Assembly: GCA_029570375.1 (NCBI GenBank)
Contig: JAKPXB010000032.1
Coordinates: 1 to 45,790 of the forward strand
Length of the DNA: 45,790 nt
Direction: 5' to 3'
Source of the DNA: Bacillota bacterium
GTDB taxonomy: Bacteria > Bacillota > Clostridia > Saccharofermentanales > DTU023
Part shown: one piece after another, positions 27,212 through 34,410 of the stretch
Numbering within the stretch: the first letter of the stretch is position 1
How the letters are laid out: every line of letters begins with the position of its first letter
Program-made: the position numbers and the translations under genes
Notes under the pieces: generated by a model
Seen by the model: only the letters and a program-made list of their open reading frames with translations
Database searches by the model: none
Told to the model about the DNA's origin: nothing

Positions 27212-28330
27212 ATGAAAGATGTGAAGGTTAACACAGACAATTTCCGCAAAACGACCCGGCAGGTCTCCGTCGGCCCTGTGCTCGTCGGCGGAGGCGCACC
27301 GGTCTCTGTCCAGTCTATGTGTACGGCGGATACGCGCCGGACGGAAGACGTGTTGGAGGAAATCGGGAGGCTCGAGCGCGCGGGCTGCGAGATCGTCCGG
27401 CTGGCCGTTCCCGATGCGGAAGCCGCTCAGGCGCTTCGCCCTATCTGCCTCAAATCGCCTCTCCCGGTCGTCGCCGACATTCACTTCGATTACCGTCTGG
27501 CGATCTCCGCGATCCGCGCCGGTGTGAATAAAATCAGAATCAACCCCGGCAATATGCACGACGGCGGCGGGCTGGAAAAAATAGTTAAACTGGCACGGAA
27601 AGCCTGTATTCCCATTCGCGTCGGTGTCAACGCGGGTTCCCTCGACAGGAAGCTGATCGCGGAGTACGGCGGTGTCACGGCGGAGGCGCTGGCCGCGTCC
27701 GCTGTTCTCGCGGTGCGGGAACTGGAGCAGCTGGATTTTGAAGATATCGTCGTCTCAGCGAAAGCATCCTCACCGCGGCTGATGATCGACACATACCGCT
27801 TGCTCTCGGAAGCGATCCGCTATCCTCTGCACCTCGGCGTCACCGAGGCCGGCACAAGAGCGGAGGGCATTATCCGCTCCGCGGTCGGCCTGGGGGCGCT
27901 TCTCTCCGACGGTATCGGCGACACGATCCGCGTCTCCCTCACGGCAGACCCTGTCGAGGAGGCCGCCGCCGGGTTTGCTATCCTGAAAGCGCTGGGGCTC
28001 CGGCAGAGGGGGGCGACGCTGATCAGCTGTCCCACATGCGGCCGCACGGAAGTTCCTCTGATGAAAATTGCCGAGGAAGTCGAACGGCGGCTCGCCGCGG
28101 TCACCGCGCCCATAAAAGTGGCTGTGATGGGATGTGTCGTCAACGGCCCGGGCGAAGCGCGTGAAGCCGATATCGGCATCGCCGGAGGCAAAGAACAGTT
28201 TATGCTCTTCCGAAAAGGGGAGCCTGTCCGCAAGATCTCTCAGGAGACCGCTGTCGACGAACTGATGAACGAGATTGATCTGTATCTGAAAGAACAGCAT
28301 GAACAGCCATTGCCAGGTCATTCTCGCTGA
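27212..28330 (+). CDS. ispG: 4-hydroxy-3-methylbut-2-en-1-yl diphosphate synthase (flavodoxin)
   Basis: IspG converts MEcPP to HMBPP with a [4Fe-4S] cluster and is the enzyme immediately before IspH. The N-terminal TIM-barrel part shows VSVQSMCTADTRRTEDVLEE, VADIHFDYRLA and NKIRINPGN; the cluster domain shows SCPTCGRTE and VMGCVVNGPGEAREADIG. I chose the ATG at 27212 (GGTGA upstream, 372 residues); a GTG at 27203 overlapping the rseP stop is equally possible. The 3' end overlaps the priA start by 32 bp. Confidence 0.96.
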   Translation: MKDVKVNTDNFRKTTRQVSVGPVLVGGGAPVSVQSMCTADTRRTEDVLEEIGRLERAGCEIVRLAVPDAEAAQALRPICLKSPLPVVADIHFDYRLAISAIRAGVNKIRINPGNMHDGGGLEKIVKLARKACIPIRVGVNAGSLDRKLIAEYGGVTAEALAASAVLAVRELEQLDFEDIVVSAKASSPRLMIDTYRLLSEAIRYPLHLGVTEAGTRAEGIIRSAVGLGALLSDGIGDTIRVSLTADPVEEAAAGFAILKALGLRQRGATLISCPTCGRTEVPLMKIAEEVERRLAAVTAPIKVAVMGCVVNGPGEAREADIGIAGGKEQFMLFRKGEPVRKISQETAVDELMNEIDLYLKEQHEQPLPGHSR

Positions 28331-30572
28331 CGCGGCGCGCCATTTCGACCGCGCCTGGACGTACCGCGTTCCCGAATCGCTGAGGGGATCGATTGAAATC
28401 GGCTCACTTGTTCTTGTCCCTTTCGGAACACGAAAAGAACCTTTGCGCGCCTTTGTCACGGGTTTCCCTGAAATGCCCCCCGGCGGGTATGACGAGGGGA
28501 AAATCCGCGAGGTCCACCGGGTGCTGTCGAACGGGCCGGTCGTCACCGAAGAACAGATCGCGCTCGCGTCTGAGATGAAACGGCGCTATTACTGCACCAT
28601 GGGCGACGCTGTCAATGCGATGGTACCGCCCGCCGTTCTCGCGGTCGGCGGCCGCGAAGTCAGGTTCGCGCGCCTCGTCGACACGGCGGAAGCGGCTGAT
28701 CTGCTCGATTCAGGGGATCTGAGAAGCATGAAGCAGGTGCGCGTCATCGAACTTCTGCTTGAACACGAGGAGGCTTCCTGCGCGGAGATCAGGCAGGCGG
28801 CCGATGTCTCTCAGGGCATTCTCAATACGCTCGCTAAGAACAAGGTGATTGAATTCTTCAACCGGACGGTCAGACGCGATTTGTCCGATGAGATTGAAGA
28901 AACGGAGCCTTCCGTCAAACCTGCCCCGACGGGCGCTCAGTGTGAGGCGATCGAGAAGATTGAAGCCGCCGTGATGTCCGCGGTTAAGGGGAAGCTGAGC
29001 GAGTTTCTGCTCTTCGGGGTGACGGGGAGCGGCAAGACGGAAGTCTATCTGCAAGCCTCCGAGCGCGTCCTGGCGCGCGGTAAAACGATTCTGATTCTTG
29101 TTCCCGAAATCTCTCTTACACCGCAGATGACGCGCCGTCTGGTATCGCGTTTCGGGGAGCGCGTCGCTATCCTTCACAGCCGGCTTACACCTGCCGGGCG
29201 TTACGAGATGTGGCAGCGCGTTCTGGCAGGGGAAGTCCCGATCGTCGTAGGCGCGCGCTCTGCCGTTTTCGCCCCGCTGAAAAATCTTGGCATGATTGTG
29301 ATCGATGAGGAACAGGAATCGAGTTACAAAGCCGAAATGAAGCCTCGCTATTACGCGGCGGATATTGCGAGAATCCGCGCGATCATGAACGGCGCGGTTC
29401 TCGTGCTTGGGTCGGCGACGCCGCAAGTCTCGTCATTCTGGCGCGCGGAGAATGGATTGTCGACGATTCTGCGTCTCCCCGACAGAATCAGCGACTACGG
29501 GATGGCGGATGTCGATGTCATCGATATGCGCGCCGAATACGCGCGCGGCAATCTGTCGATATTCAGCGAACGTCTGGCGGCTGAGCTGACCTACACGATC
29601 GACCGGGGCGAACAGGCGATGATTCTCCTGAACCGCCGCGGGTTCTCGCGCACCGTCATATGCCGAAAATGCGGCTGGCAGATGCGCTGTCCGCAGTGTG
29701 ACATCGCGCTCACGTCCCACCGCAACCCTTACGGCGGCCAGTCCAGAATGGTCTGCCATCTCTGTGAGCGCCTGGCGCGCGTTCCGGCGTACTGCCCTGT
29801 GTGCGGGAGTGAGGAAATCATGGCTTACGGGGCGGGGACGCAGCAGGTGGAAGAAGAGATTCTCCGGCGCTTCCCTCACGCGCGCGTTCTTCGCATGGAT
29901 CAGGATACGACACGGGGAAGGTTCTCTCACCGGGAGATACTCGACGCTTTTGAGCGGCACGAAGCCGATGTGCTTGTCGGAACCCAGATGATTGCCAAAG
30001 GCCATGATTTTCACAATGTAACGCTTGCCGCGATTCTGTCAGCGGATCAGCTTCTGGGGACAGGCGAATTCCGCGCCCCGGAGCACGCGTTTCAGTTGAT
30101 GACGCAGGCGGCCGGGCGCGCGGGGAGAGGCCTGAAAAAGGGACGTGTCATCATTCAGGCTGTTCAACCCGACCATTTTGTCGTGAAAGCCGCTGCCGGC
30201 CAGGACTATGAAGCGTTTTACCGTGAAGAGATTGTCTTCCGGAAGAGGATGCGCTATCTTCCTTTCGGGCATATCGGCATGGCGCAGTTCAAGGGGTTCA
30301 GCCGATTGGATACAGAAGACGCGGCTCGCGCTTTTTACCGTGAAGCCGCTCAAATGATCAGACGGTACGGGGGTACATTCGCCGATACGATACTGGCGGA
30401 AGCGTCGCCCGCGCCGATTGAAAAAATCAGGAGCCGCTACCGCTTCCGCGTCATGGTCAGAGATGAGTCGGCTGAGAATCTGACGCGGCTTCTTTTCATC
30501 ACGGCGGATCATCTGAAAAGGCCGAAGGGAGTCTCCCTGGCGATCGATATTGATCCGTGGAGTACGTTCTGA
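28299..30572 (+). CDS. priA: Primosomal protein N' (replication restart helicase PriA)
   Basis: The 757-residue helicase reloads the replisome at stalled forks. It has the N-terminal DNA 3'-end-binding domain, Walker A VTGSGKTEVY (Lys246), a Walker B motif reading VIDEEQESSYK (336-339 DEEQ instead of the usual DEEH), eight zinc-ligand cysteines in two clusters (CRKCGWQMRCPQC and CHLC...CPVC), and the helicase C block VGTQMIAKGHDFHNVTL. The ATG at 28299 overlaps ispG by 32 bp, with a weak GAAAGA ribosome-binding site. It heads the priA-def-fmt-rsmB order known from Firmicutes. Confidence 0.95.
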   Translation: MNSHCQVILADAARHFDRAWTYRVPESLRGSIEIGSLVLVPFGTRKEPLRAFVTGFPEMPPGGYDEGKIREVHRVLSNGPVVTEEQIALASEMKRRYYCTMGDAVNAMVPPAVLAVGGREVRFARLVDTAEAADLLDSGDLRSMKQVRVIELLLEHEEASCAEIRQAADVSQGILNTLAKNKVIEFFNRTVRRDLSDEIEETEPSVKPAPTGAQCEAIEKIEAAVMSAVKGKLSEFLLFGVTGSGKTEVYLQASERVLARGKTILILVPEISLTPQMTRRLVSRFGERVAILHSRLTPAGRYEMWQRVLAGEVPIVVGARSAVFAPLKNLGMIVIDEEQESSYKAEMKPRYYAADIARIRAIMNGAVLVLGSATPQVSSFWRAENGLSTILRLPDRISDYGMADVDVIDMRAEYARGNLSIFSERLAAELTYTIDRGEQAMILLNRRGFSRTVICRKCGWQMRCPQCDIALTSHRNPYGGQSRMVCHLCERLARVPAYCPVCGSEEIMAYGAGTQQVEEEILRRFPHARVLRMDQDTTRGRFSHREILDAFERHEADVLVGTQMIAKGHDFHNVTLAAILSADQLLGTGEFRAPEHAFQLMTQAAGRAGRGLKKGRVIIQAVQPDHFVVKAAAGQDYEAFYREEIVFRKRMRYLPFGHIGMAQFKGFSRLDTEDAARAFYREAAQMIRRYGGTFADTILAEASPAPIEKIRSRYRFRVMVRDESAENLTRLLFITADHLKRPKGVSLAIDIDPWSTF

Positions 30573-30652
30573 CGTACCGTGGGCGACTACAAAGGCGGCG
30601 GCGGTTGTTATATGCTTAGACTGGATTTGCTTAGGAAGTAGAGGTGCCCGGC

Positions 30653-32095
30653 ATGGCTACGCGTACGATCCTCGTCGAGGGTGACCCGGCGTTGTTGAAA
30701 AAATCGAGACGCATTGTGAAATTTGATGACAGGCTTGCGATGCTAGCGGACGATATGACCGAAACCATGTACAGCGGTGACGGCGTCGGGCTGGCCGCGC
30801 CGCAGGTCGGCGTTCTGCGGCGCCTTTTTGTCATGGATACGGGGGACGGAGACGGCCCTGTGACGTTTGTGAATCCGGAGATTCTGAGCGAGGAAGGCGA
30901 ACAGCGCGGGATCGAAGGGTGTCTGTCTCTGCCGGGTCTTGTCGGCATTGTTCCCCGCCCTCTGACGGTCCGCGTCCGGGCGCAGGATGTGGCGGGAACC
31001 TTTTTTGAGAAGACTTATACGGGGCTCGCGGCCCGCTGTGTCTGCCACGAGACAGATCACCTCGACGGTATTCTGTACCGCCAGCGCTCTGAGACGGTTC
31101 TCTGCACACTCGAGGAATTTGAGGAGCAGCAGAAGAGAGAAAGAGAGAAGAGCATCCGCTTCGCTTTTATGGGAACCCCCGTTTTTGCGACTGTCGTCCT
31201 CAATCAGCTTGAACAGGCGGGGTATCTCCCGTCGCTTGTCATCACGCAGCCTGACCGCCCGAGCGGGAGGGGAAAAACGCTGACGGCGCCTCCTGCCGCC
31301 GTATGGGCCAAAGACAGACAGATTCCCCTGATTCAGCCCGCCAGCTGCAGGGATCCCGCCCTTGCCGACGCGCTTCGGGAGCTGAGTCCTGAGGTGATTG
31401 TCACCGCGTCGTTTGGTCAGTACCTTCCCCCGTCCATCCTCTCACTCCCGGAGAAAGGGTGTGTCAACGTCCACGCGTCGCTGCTGCCGAAGTACCGCGG
31501 CTCGTCGCCGATTCAGGCGGCGATTCTGTCCGGCGACAAGGAGACGGGCGTCACACTCATGGTGATGGATAAAGGCTTTGATACTGGGCCCGTCATCGCG
31601 AAGGCAGCCTATCCGATAGACGATGAAATCGACGCGGGACAGCTCAGTCTCGCGCTCGCAAAACTCGGCGGCGAACTCGTCGCGCGCGAACTTCCCCGAT
31701 ATCTTGCCGGTGAGATAACAGCCGCGGCGCAGGACGAATCGGAGGCCACGGAAACGCACATGCTGCGAAAAGAAGACGGGCGGGTCGATTTCAATAAGAG
31801 CGCGCGTGACGTCCACAATCATATCCGCGCCATGTCGCCCTGGCCGGGAGCCTTCGCCTATCTGAACGGGAAGCGCTACAAACTCCTGCGTTCGCGTGTG
31901 CACGCGTGCGGCGGCGACGCTTGCGGAGCCCCGGGAGAGATTCGGGTGAGCGGCCATCGTATGTTTATTTCGTGCGCGGAAGGAGCAATCGAACTGTTGA
32001 ATATACAGGCGCAGTCCGGCTCCGCTATGTGTGTTGATCAATGCGCGCACAACTTTGAGTGCGGCGCTCTTTTCTGCGGCGCTGAAGAGTCTTAG
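30653..32095 (+). CDS. def-fmt: Fusion of peptide deformylase with methionyl-tRNA formyltransferase
   Basis: One 480-residue frame carries both enzymes of the formyl-methionine cycle. Residues 1-150 are deformylase with all three metal motifs: GVGLAAPQVG (44-53), EGCLSLPG (Cys90) and HETDH (His132, Glu133, His136). After a charged helical linker, residues 168-480 are the formyltransferase: FMGTPVFA, TQPDRPSGRGK, NVHASLLPKYRG (Asn272, His274) and GFDTGPVI (Asp310). No ATG, GTG or TTG lies near the natural Fmt start, and no stop intervenes, so separate translation looks unlikely. The ATG at 30653 fits the Def N-terminus; a GTG at 30644 is possible. Confidence 0.93.
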   Translation: MATRTILVEGDPALLKKSRRIVKFDDRLAMLADDMTETMYSGDGVGLAAPQVGVLRRLFVMDTGDGDGPVTFVNPEILSEEGEQRGIEGCLSLPGLVGIVPRPLTVRVRAQDVAGTFFEKTYTGLAARCVCHETDHLDGILYRQRSETVLCTLEEFEEQQKREREKSIRFAFMGTPVFATVVLNQLEQAGYLPSLVITQPDRPSGRGKTLTAPPAAVWAKDRQIPLIQPASCRDPALADALRELSPEVIVTASFGQYLPPSILSLPEKGCVNVHASLLPKYRGSSPIQAAILSGDKETGVTLMVMDKGFDTGPVIAKAAYPIDDEIDAGQLSLALAKLGGELVARELPRYLAGEITAAAQDESEATETHMLRKEDGRVDFNKSARDVHNHIRAMSPWPGAFAYLNGKRYKLLRSRVHACGGDACGAPGEIRVSGHRMFISCAEGAIELLNIQAQSGSAMCVDQCAHNFECGALFCGAEES

Positions 32096-32110: not shown

Positions 32111-32797
32111 ATGGACTGGCAGATCTGGTTATTTGTGATCGGGTTGGGGCTGAGCCTGTTTGCACAGATAAAGGTGCAGTCGAGCTTCGGCAGATACAAC
32201 AGAGTGATGGCGCGCTCCGGTTACACGGGCTTCCGGGCGGCGCGGCGAGTACTGGACGAGAACGGACTACGCGAGGTCGATGTCCAGCGCGTAGGGGGCA
32301 GCCTGACGGACCATTACAGTCCCCGGGAAAAAGTGCTCAGGCTCTCGGACGCCACGCATGACTCCCGGTCTGTCGCGGCGATCGGCGTCGCGCTGCACGA
32401 GGTGGGACACGCCGTTCAGCACAAGGAAGGGTATTTCGCGAACAAAATCCGCTCGGCTCTGCTACTGCCCGCCAATATCGGCTCGCAATTCGGCCCGGTG
32501 CTCGCGGTCGCGGGGCTTCTGATGCAGTCCGCGCTCGGCGATCAGCTGATGAGCATCGGTATCCTCTTCTTCGCCGCCTCCGTACTTTTTTATCTGGTGA
32601 CACTTCCTGTTGAATTCAACGCGAGCCGCCGGGCACTGGCGATGCTTTCGCAGACGGGCATACTCGCGGACGACGAGATCAGGGGCGCCCGCAAAGTTCT
32701 CAGCGCGGCGGCCCTGACGTATGTGGCGTCGGCGTTGACGGCGGTTCTTTATCTTCTCCGGTTTGTCGCAATGGCGGGTTCGCGCCGCCGGCGCTGA
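32111..32797 (+). CDS. Zinc metallopeptidase, YugP family
   Basis: The 228-residue membrane protein has an N-terminal helix, the zinc motif ALHEVGHAVQH (His96, Glu97, His100), then two or three further helices; this is the layout of the neutral zinc metallopeptidase family typified by B. subtilis YugP. LPVEFNASRRAL after the third helix is also characteristic. The substrate is unknown. The ATG is 15 bp after def-fmt with GAGG upstream, and rsmB follows. In many Clostridia this gene sits in the same place, between fmt and rsmB. Confidence 0.9.
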   Translation: MDWQIWLFVIGLGLSLFAQIKVQSSFGRYNRVMARSGYTGFRAARRVLDENGLREVDVQRVGGSLTDHYSPREKVLRLSDATHDSRSVAAIGVALHEVGHAVQHKEGYFANKIRSALLLPANIGSQFGPVLAVAGLLMQSALGDQLMSIGILFFAASVLFYLVTLPVEFNASRRALAMLSQTGILADDEIRGARKVLSAAALTYVASALTAVLYLLRFVAMAGSRRRR

Positions 32798-32825
32798 TGG
32801 CGGACGCGCCGGAGGGAGCAGGGGA

Positions 32826-34175
32826 TTGAGCGGCAGGAAGAAAGATATTGACCGCGCGCGCATGGCAGCCGCCCGGGTCGTCCACGCCGTTGCTTTCGAA
32901 AGCGCTTTTTCAAACGAAAGCGCGGCGTATCACCTCGCGTCACCTGATCTCGACGCGCGCGACAGAGCGTTCGCGTCAGCCCTGATATTCGGAACACTCT
33001 CGAACCGGCCACTGATTGATTATTATCTCTCCCGCGCGTCATCGCGATCTTTGGACAAACTGGACAAATGGGTGATTACCATTCTCCGGACGGGCGTCTG
33101 GCAGTTGTTTTTCTCGTATCATGTTCCGCAGCGGTCAGCGGTAGACGAGAGCGTGAAACTGGCGCGCTTTTTTGTGGGCGAACGGGCTACCGGGTTTGTC
33201 AATGCGGTCATGCGCGGGCTCATCCGCCGGAAACCTCCGCTCAGCGAGGACAGCGGGCGCGCTCTCACGTGCGGGCTGACACCTGAATTGTTTGAGATGC
33301 TGTCGGAATGGTACGGAGAAGACCAGGCGGCCGCCATCGGTCATTGTTCTCTCCTGCCGCCGGATTGCGTCCCTGTCCGGATGAACGCCTTGCGGCGAAA
33401 GGCGTTTCTGGAATGGGCGTCCGGCGATGAGGCGCGGGCACTGGGTGTAAGGAAACTCGACTGGCCGGACGCAGCCTACGGGATCGAACCGGCAGGGCAT
33501 AATGTGACGCGGCTGCAGCCATACCGGGACGGCCTGTTCTCGCTGCAGTCGCAATCCGCGATGCTTGTCGGTTCCCTGTCAGGCGTTTCCGCTGATGACC
33601 GCGTGCTGGACTTGTGCGCCGCACCCGGCGGCAAAATAACCCACATCGCGGAACTGAAAGGGAACGACCGCGGCCTGACCGCCTGTGATATCTCCGAAGA
33701 GCGTCTCCGTTCACTGGATGACCTGTCGCGCCGCCTCGGGTTCAGCGCCATTGAGCGGCGCTGCCTGGACGCGGCCGATCACCACGAAGCGTTCGACAGT
33801 TCTTTCGATATCGTCTTGTGCGATGTCCCCTGTACAGGGCTCGGACTGCTGCAGCGCCGGCCTGAGATACGGTCGCGCGTGACACGGGAGACAGCCGGCC
33901 GCCTGCTTCCTATTCAGCGGGCGATCCTGAGAAACGGCTCAAGAGCTGTTGTACCCGGCGGTGTCCTGATGTACTCGACCTGCACCATCAACCCCGCGGA
34001 GAATGAAGATCAGATACGGGATTTTCTCGGTTCCTGCGAGGGGAAGGCGTTTGAGGTGGAACACATCACAACCGGTCTTCCATCCTCCTCCCGTTTGCCG
34101 GGGACCCTCCTTTTACTGCCGCACCTGGCTGGTTCTGACGGATTCTTTATCGCCCGCTTGAGGCGGAAAGCCTGA
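32826..34175 (+). CDS. rsmB: 16S rRNA (cytosine967-C5)-methyltransferase
   Basis: RsmB methylates C967 of 16S rRNA with SAM. The N-terminal NusB-like helical domain (about 10-140, RDRAFASALIFGTLSNR) precedes the Rossmann methyltransferase with LCAAPGGKITHIAELK, CDVPCTGLG (Cys336) and YSTCTINPAEN (catalytic Cys386). I prefer a TTG start at 32826, where GGAGG lies at usable spacing and the length becomes 449, normal for the family; the ATG at 32862 would cut into the NusB-like domain. In many Firmicutes rlmN follows; here it does not. Confidence 0.93.
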   Translation: MSGRKKDIDRARMAAARVVHAVAFESAFSNESAAYHLASPDLDARDRAFASALIFGTLSNRPLIDYYLSRASSRSLDKLDKWVITILRTGVWQLFFSYHVPQRSAVDESVKLARFFVGERATGFVNAVMRGLIRRKPPLSEDSGRALTCGLTPELFEMLSEWYGEDQAAAIGHCSLLPPDCVPVRMNALRRKAFLEWASGDEARALGVRKLDWPDAAYGIEPAGHNVTRLQPYRDGLFSLQSQSAMLVGSLSGVSADDRVLDLCAAPGGKITHIAELKGNDRGLTACDISEERLRSLDDLSRRLGFSAIERRCLDAADHHEAFDSSFDIVLCDVPCTGLGLLQRRPEIRSRVTRETAGRLLPIQRAILRNGSRAVVPGGVLMYSTCTINPAENEDQIRDFLGSCEGKAFEVEHITTGLPSSSRLPGTLLLLPHLAGSDGFFIARLRRKA

Positions 34176-34211
34176 TGACAGCGATGTTACAGCCGTTGAA
34201 AGAAACGATTG

Positions 34212-34240
34212 TTGCGGGACTTTTCACAAACTGATACAAT
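34212..34240 (+). promoter_or_regulatory. Strong sigma-A promoter of the prpC-prkC operon
   Basis: TTGCGG (34212-34217) and TACAAT (34235-34240) are 17 bp apart, and TGA just before the -10 adds an extended -10. It would give a leader of about 185 bases before prpC. Confidence 0.65.
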
Positions 34241-34353
34241 CTATCAGTAAAGCGAAAACACGTTCGAATCGTTCTTTTTATTATCCAGTTATTGTATTAT
34301 CTATGATTAATCAGGGTATTTTGTCGGATAATAAGAAGAATGTGGTTTTATAG

Positions 34354-34366
34354 TGTCAGCATGACA
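34354..34366 (+). promoter_or_regulatory. Small palindrome in the prpC leader
   Basis: TGTCA-GCA-TGACA is a perfect 5-bp inverted repeat, followed a few bases later by a run of six T (34372-34377). It could be an operator half-site pair or a weak attenuator stem. Confidence 0.35.
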
Positions 34367-34377
34367 GGCAGTTTTTT

Positions 34378-34410
34378 GCGGCCGCGGTGATATGAGGGGA
34401 GCGCGGCCGC
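34378..34410 (+). other. GC-only hairpin just before the prpC ribosome-binding site
   Basis: GCGGCCGCG (34378-34386) and CGCGGCCGC (34402-34410) form a perfect 9-bp all-GC stem with a 15-base loop that contains AGGGGA. The stem ends about 8 bases before the purine-rich ribosome-binding site of prpC. Confidence 0.7.

Follow-up and report, generated by a model that had tools for sequence, protein, structure and literature searches.

The question raised by this locus is whether two housekeeping genes, def for peptide deformylase (PDF) and fmt for methionyl-tRNA formyltransferase (Fmt), have really become one in the uncultured Clostridia bacterium from which the window (the whole 45,790-nucleotide stretch of DNA that was analysed) is taken, and, if so, how the joined gene arose and what its product would do. 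A sequence-only reading had placed both enzymes in a single polypeptide, and this is borne out by one open frame carrying both domains in complete form, with neither a stop nor a separate standard fmt start between them (Table 1). The frame is uninterrupted in the window from GTG 30644 to 32095 (483 aa), and ATG 30653 is the start that agrees with the conserved start of relatives, giving a protein of 480 aa. Counted from 30644, Pfam places Pep_deformylase at residues 7-148 (E = 3e-43), Formyl_trans_N at 172-346 (E = 3e-39), and Formyl_trans_C at 374-468 (E = 3e-22). The NCBIfam models TIGR00079 (PDF) and TIGR00460 (Fmt) both score above their curated cut-offs, the latter with 238.8 bits against an equivalog cut-off of 201.5. 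The PDF half combines the family profile with the three metal/catalytic motifs GxGxAAxQ, EGCLS, and HExDH, and the Fmt half combines the TIGR00460 match with both Pfam domains and the catalytic Asn, His, and Asp. All of the catalytic residues that had been named from the sequence, C90, H132, E133, H136, N272, H274, and D310, are present at those numbers when counting starts at 30653. The Val of the Fmt motif GTPVF, a position often occupied by E or D in relatives, was considered as a disabling change and rejected, as A, S, L, and G also occur there. In the genome as a whole (95.6% complete, 51 contigs), no second PDF or Fmt was matched.

Table 1. Coordinates of the fused gene, its parts, and its neighbours in the window
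Feature	Coordinates	Strand	Remarks
def-fmt fusion gene	30653..32095	+	480 aa from ATG 30653; stop TAG included
peptide deformylase domain, residues 1-150	30653..31102	+	motifs GVGLAAPQVG, EGCLSLPG, HETDH
linker, residues 151-167	31103..31153	+	PDF C-terminal helix LEEFEEQQKREREK, short turn, then Fmt
methionyl-tRNA formyltransferase domain, residues 168-480	31154..32092	+	N272/H274/D310 present
priA, upstream neighbour	28299..30572	+	context
rsmB, downstream neighbour	32763..34175	+	context

Between 31000 and the Fmt start, the frame contains no ATG, GTG, or TTG, as the earlier reading had held, the only candidates being the non-standard ATT 31070, CTG 31073, and ATC 31154; the first in-frame ATG past the junction, at 31169, lies within the first Fmt strand. 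The linker DNA is purine-rich and of low complexity, with a GA stretch at 31120-31155, and in congeners its place is taken by the tail of PDF, the stop of def, and the start of fmt. In an AlphaFold2 model of the fusion (mean pLDDT 96, pTM 0.78), the PDF C-terminal helix spans residues 153-166 and the first Fmt strand residues 170-174, no more than 4 residues apart. The model presents two well-folded domains linked by the PDF C-terminal helix, whereas their relative placement is uncertain at this pTM. Foldseek matches the model to the Fmt structures 4iqf and 2fmt and to the PDF structure 1ws0; none of the top fold matches is a chain that spans both domains, and no solved structure of that kind was found.

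The origin of the gene becomes apparent from genomes of the same genus. Wherever they were found to contain the pair, def and fmt form separate genes; at the junctions that were read, G006 excepted, the two overlap by 4 nt (ATGA or GTGA), with the fmt start in another frame. These neighbouring, slightly overlapping genes support the origin from an adjacent def-fmt pair that the sequence-only reading had proposed. In the four closest congeners (G002, G005, G001, and G009), 63-74 aa of PDF follow the HExxH motif before the stop and the overlapping fmt start. Measured from HExxH to the shared third Fmt codon (Ile in the window), the span in the window is shorter by 110 nt than in G002, 134 nt than in G005, 101 nt than in G001, and 104 nt than in G009. 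Absent from the window, in this block of 101-134 nt, are the acidic tail of PDF, the stop codon of def, and, for fmt, both the ribosome-binding region and the start codon. Each of the four size differences is 2 mod 3, precisely the shift needed to bring the two frames together. A tree built from PDF plus Fmt places the window next to G002 (as L053), G005, G001, and G009 with a parent support of 0.996; amino-acid identity to G002, whose genes are separate, is 77% for PDF and 73% for Fmt. Given that the window sits in a genus whose other members are all unfused, separate genes are the ancestral state, and given that it also lacks this block, the fusion was derived in its own lineage, where a deletion would have joined the frames. 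In G006 (G006:C53:50349-51722, L037), def and fmt share a frame with a single TAG between them, so that one substitution would give the genus a second fusion.

Both halves are under strong purifying constraint, with pN of 0.14-0.19 against pS of 0.70-0.81; dS is saturated in this substitution comparison. From the shared node, the path to G002 measures 0.21, and the window branch, at 0.19, is not the longer of the two. It should be noted that the constraint covers the branch as a whole, so that activity since the fusion does not follow from it.

Could an assembly or consensus error, in the form of a small indel within this purine-rich linker, simply make two genes look like one frame? Only one assembly is available, the GA stretch is of low complexity, def and fmt are separate in congeners, and TTG 31119, in the +1 frame, could start fmt if the indel came after it. 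On the other hand, this TTG is the only ATG, GTG, or TTG in any frame between 31080 and Fmt, a frameshifted def would extend 21 or 45 aa into fmt, and the four closest congeners differ from the window by the whole 101-134 nt block, fmt start and ribosome-binding region included, and not by one base. Relatives with separate genes had been put forward in advance as a finding that would count against the fusion; such relatives do exist, but the size of the missing block deprives them of that force, and we regard an artefact as very unlikely. It is likewise very unlikely that the fusion is made alongside a separate Fmt, whether by internal initiation at AUC 31154 or by cutting of the linker after translation. 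The AUC lies near the native Fmt start, being the third codon of congener fmt, and the charged linker could be exposed; however, AUC initiation is rare in general, the ribosome-binding region of the congeners is absent, no clear Shine-Dalgarno sequence is seen by eye at proper spacing, and a start at ATG 31169 would cost the protein its first Fmt strand. It is thus very probable that def and fmt, two adjacent housekeeping genes, have genuinely fused, and specifically in this lineage. The case is seen in one genome, which presumably is metagenome-assembled, judging from its 51 contigs and from its relatives, which are metagenome-assembled genomes.

No other def-fmt fusion appears among the matches listed for the order (181 of 188 genomes with a match), nor among those listed for the class sample (391 genomes). 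In many members of the class, def and fmt lie in one frame with a single stop between them. A single substitution should then readily fuse the two, but fusion is rare in this class. A phylum-wide sample (398 genomes) yielded further uninterrupted fusions, in other Bacillota families. All genomes examined are fused in the genus of G480, G526, G564, and G651 (4/4), which we take to include Thermaerobacter marianensis (G526), and likewise in the families of G699 (14/14, one interrupted by a contig end), G598 (2/2), and G722 (4/4). Identification of that four-genome genus as Exiguobacterium was rejected on the ground that it has one PDF per genome, not two. The Thermaerobacter-type fusions and those of related families fall together in a single old clade (support 0.84); among the groups sampled, its nearest sister is unfused. 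They resemble the window in domain order, in the lack of a stop, and in that the fused PDF is mostly the only one in the genome (18 of 20 fused genomes checked; G860 and G722 have two PDFs); 7 to 73 residues lie between the aligned domains, and 17 in the window. Besides the published Exiguobacterium, several Bacillota families thus have the fused state as a fixed one (loci L129-L136 and L141-L156), with linkers that range from very short to a charged stretch of 73 residues (G860, L156). The part of the literature that was covered yielded no discussion of these fusions, although they may be listed in protein domain databases. Because the window falls apart from this clade and inside an unfused genus, its fusion is an independent event.

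The def-fmt fusion as a kind is already known, and is functional in Exiguobacterium; the window adds another case of the kind. The two genes are fused in four Exiguobacterium reference genomes, which also encode a second PDF, and the fusion from E. alkaliphilum complements an E. coli def-fmt deletion; it is only for Exiguobacterium that both activities have been shown in one polypeptide (PMC12690207). Both systems have def and fmt in one gene with the same layout, but the Exiguobacterium genomes carry the extra PDF (PMC12690207), whereas the genome studied here yielded no PDF besides the fused one. The window's fusion presumably arose independently of that in Exiguobacterium, judging from distant taxonomy and the unfused congeners of the window rather than from a comparison of Exiguobacterium sequences. 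The window adds an independent origin, apparently a recent one, for a fusion that is rare, and unfused relatives of the same genus show the state before. Counted along with Exiguobacterium and the Thermaerobacter-type clade, it points to three origins or more. With the functional principle already demonstrated, what the window brings within reach of testing is the need for a freely moving deformylase, as life with the sole deformylase tied to Fmt is apparently possible for a bacterium.

As for function, the most likely role is that of an ordinary bifunctional housekeeping enzyme. The Fmt half of the roughly 52-kDa protein would formylate initiator Met-tRNA and the PDF half would deformylate nascent chains; the C-terminal helix of PDF would act as the spacer. 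The outcome would be two ordinary activities at a fixed 1:1 ratio, and the pathway would gain no new step. Fixed stoichiometry, one of two consequences suggested in the sequence-only reading, follows directly from the two enzymes being one chain. In E. coli, the C-terminal helix of PDF binds the ribosome. By analogy, tethering of Fmt to the ribosome through the retained helix, here joined to Fmt, is possible. One may go further and read the repeated independent fusions as selection to keep formylation and deformylation together, the window being a recent case that has no spare PDF; Fmt could, for example, be kept near the ribosome exit via the PDF helix, or the two rates could be coupled. We consider this unlikely.

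The neighbourhood of the fusion is an ordinary def-fmt setting, with rseP, ispG, and priA upstream and a 228-aa ORF, rsmB, a PP2C phosphatase gene, and a PASTA kinase gene downstream. The gene rlmN often adjoins rsmB and the PP2C gene; here, nothing lies between those two (34175-34392), and RlmN (TIGR00048) has no match anywhere in the 95.6% complete genome, which could reflect true loss or assembly incompleteness. The 228-aa ORF that follows fmt (32111-32797) gave no match in NCBIfam at E <= 1e-10; it contains an HEVGH motif and looks like a membrane zinc peptidase.
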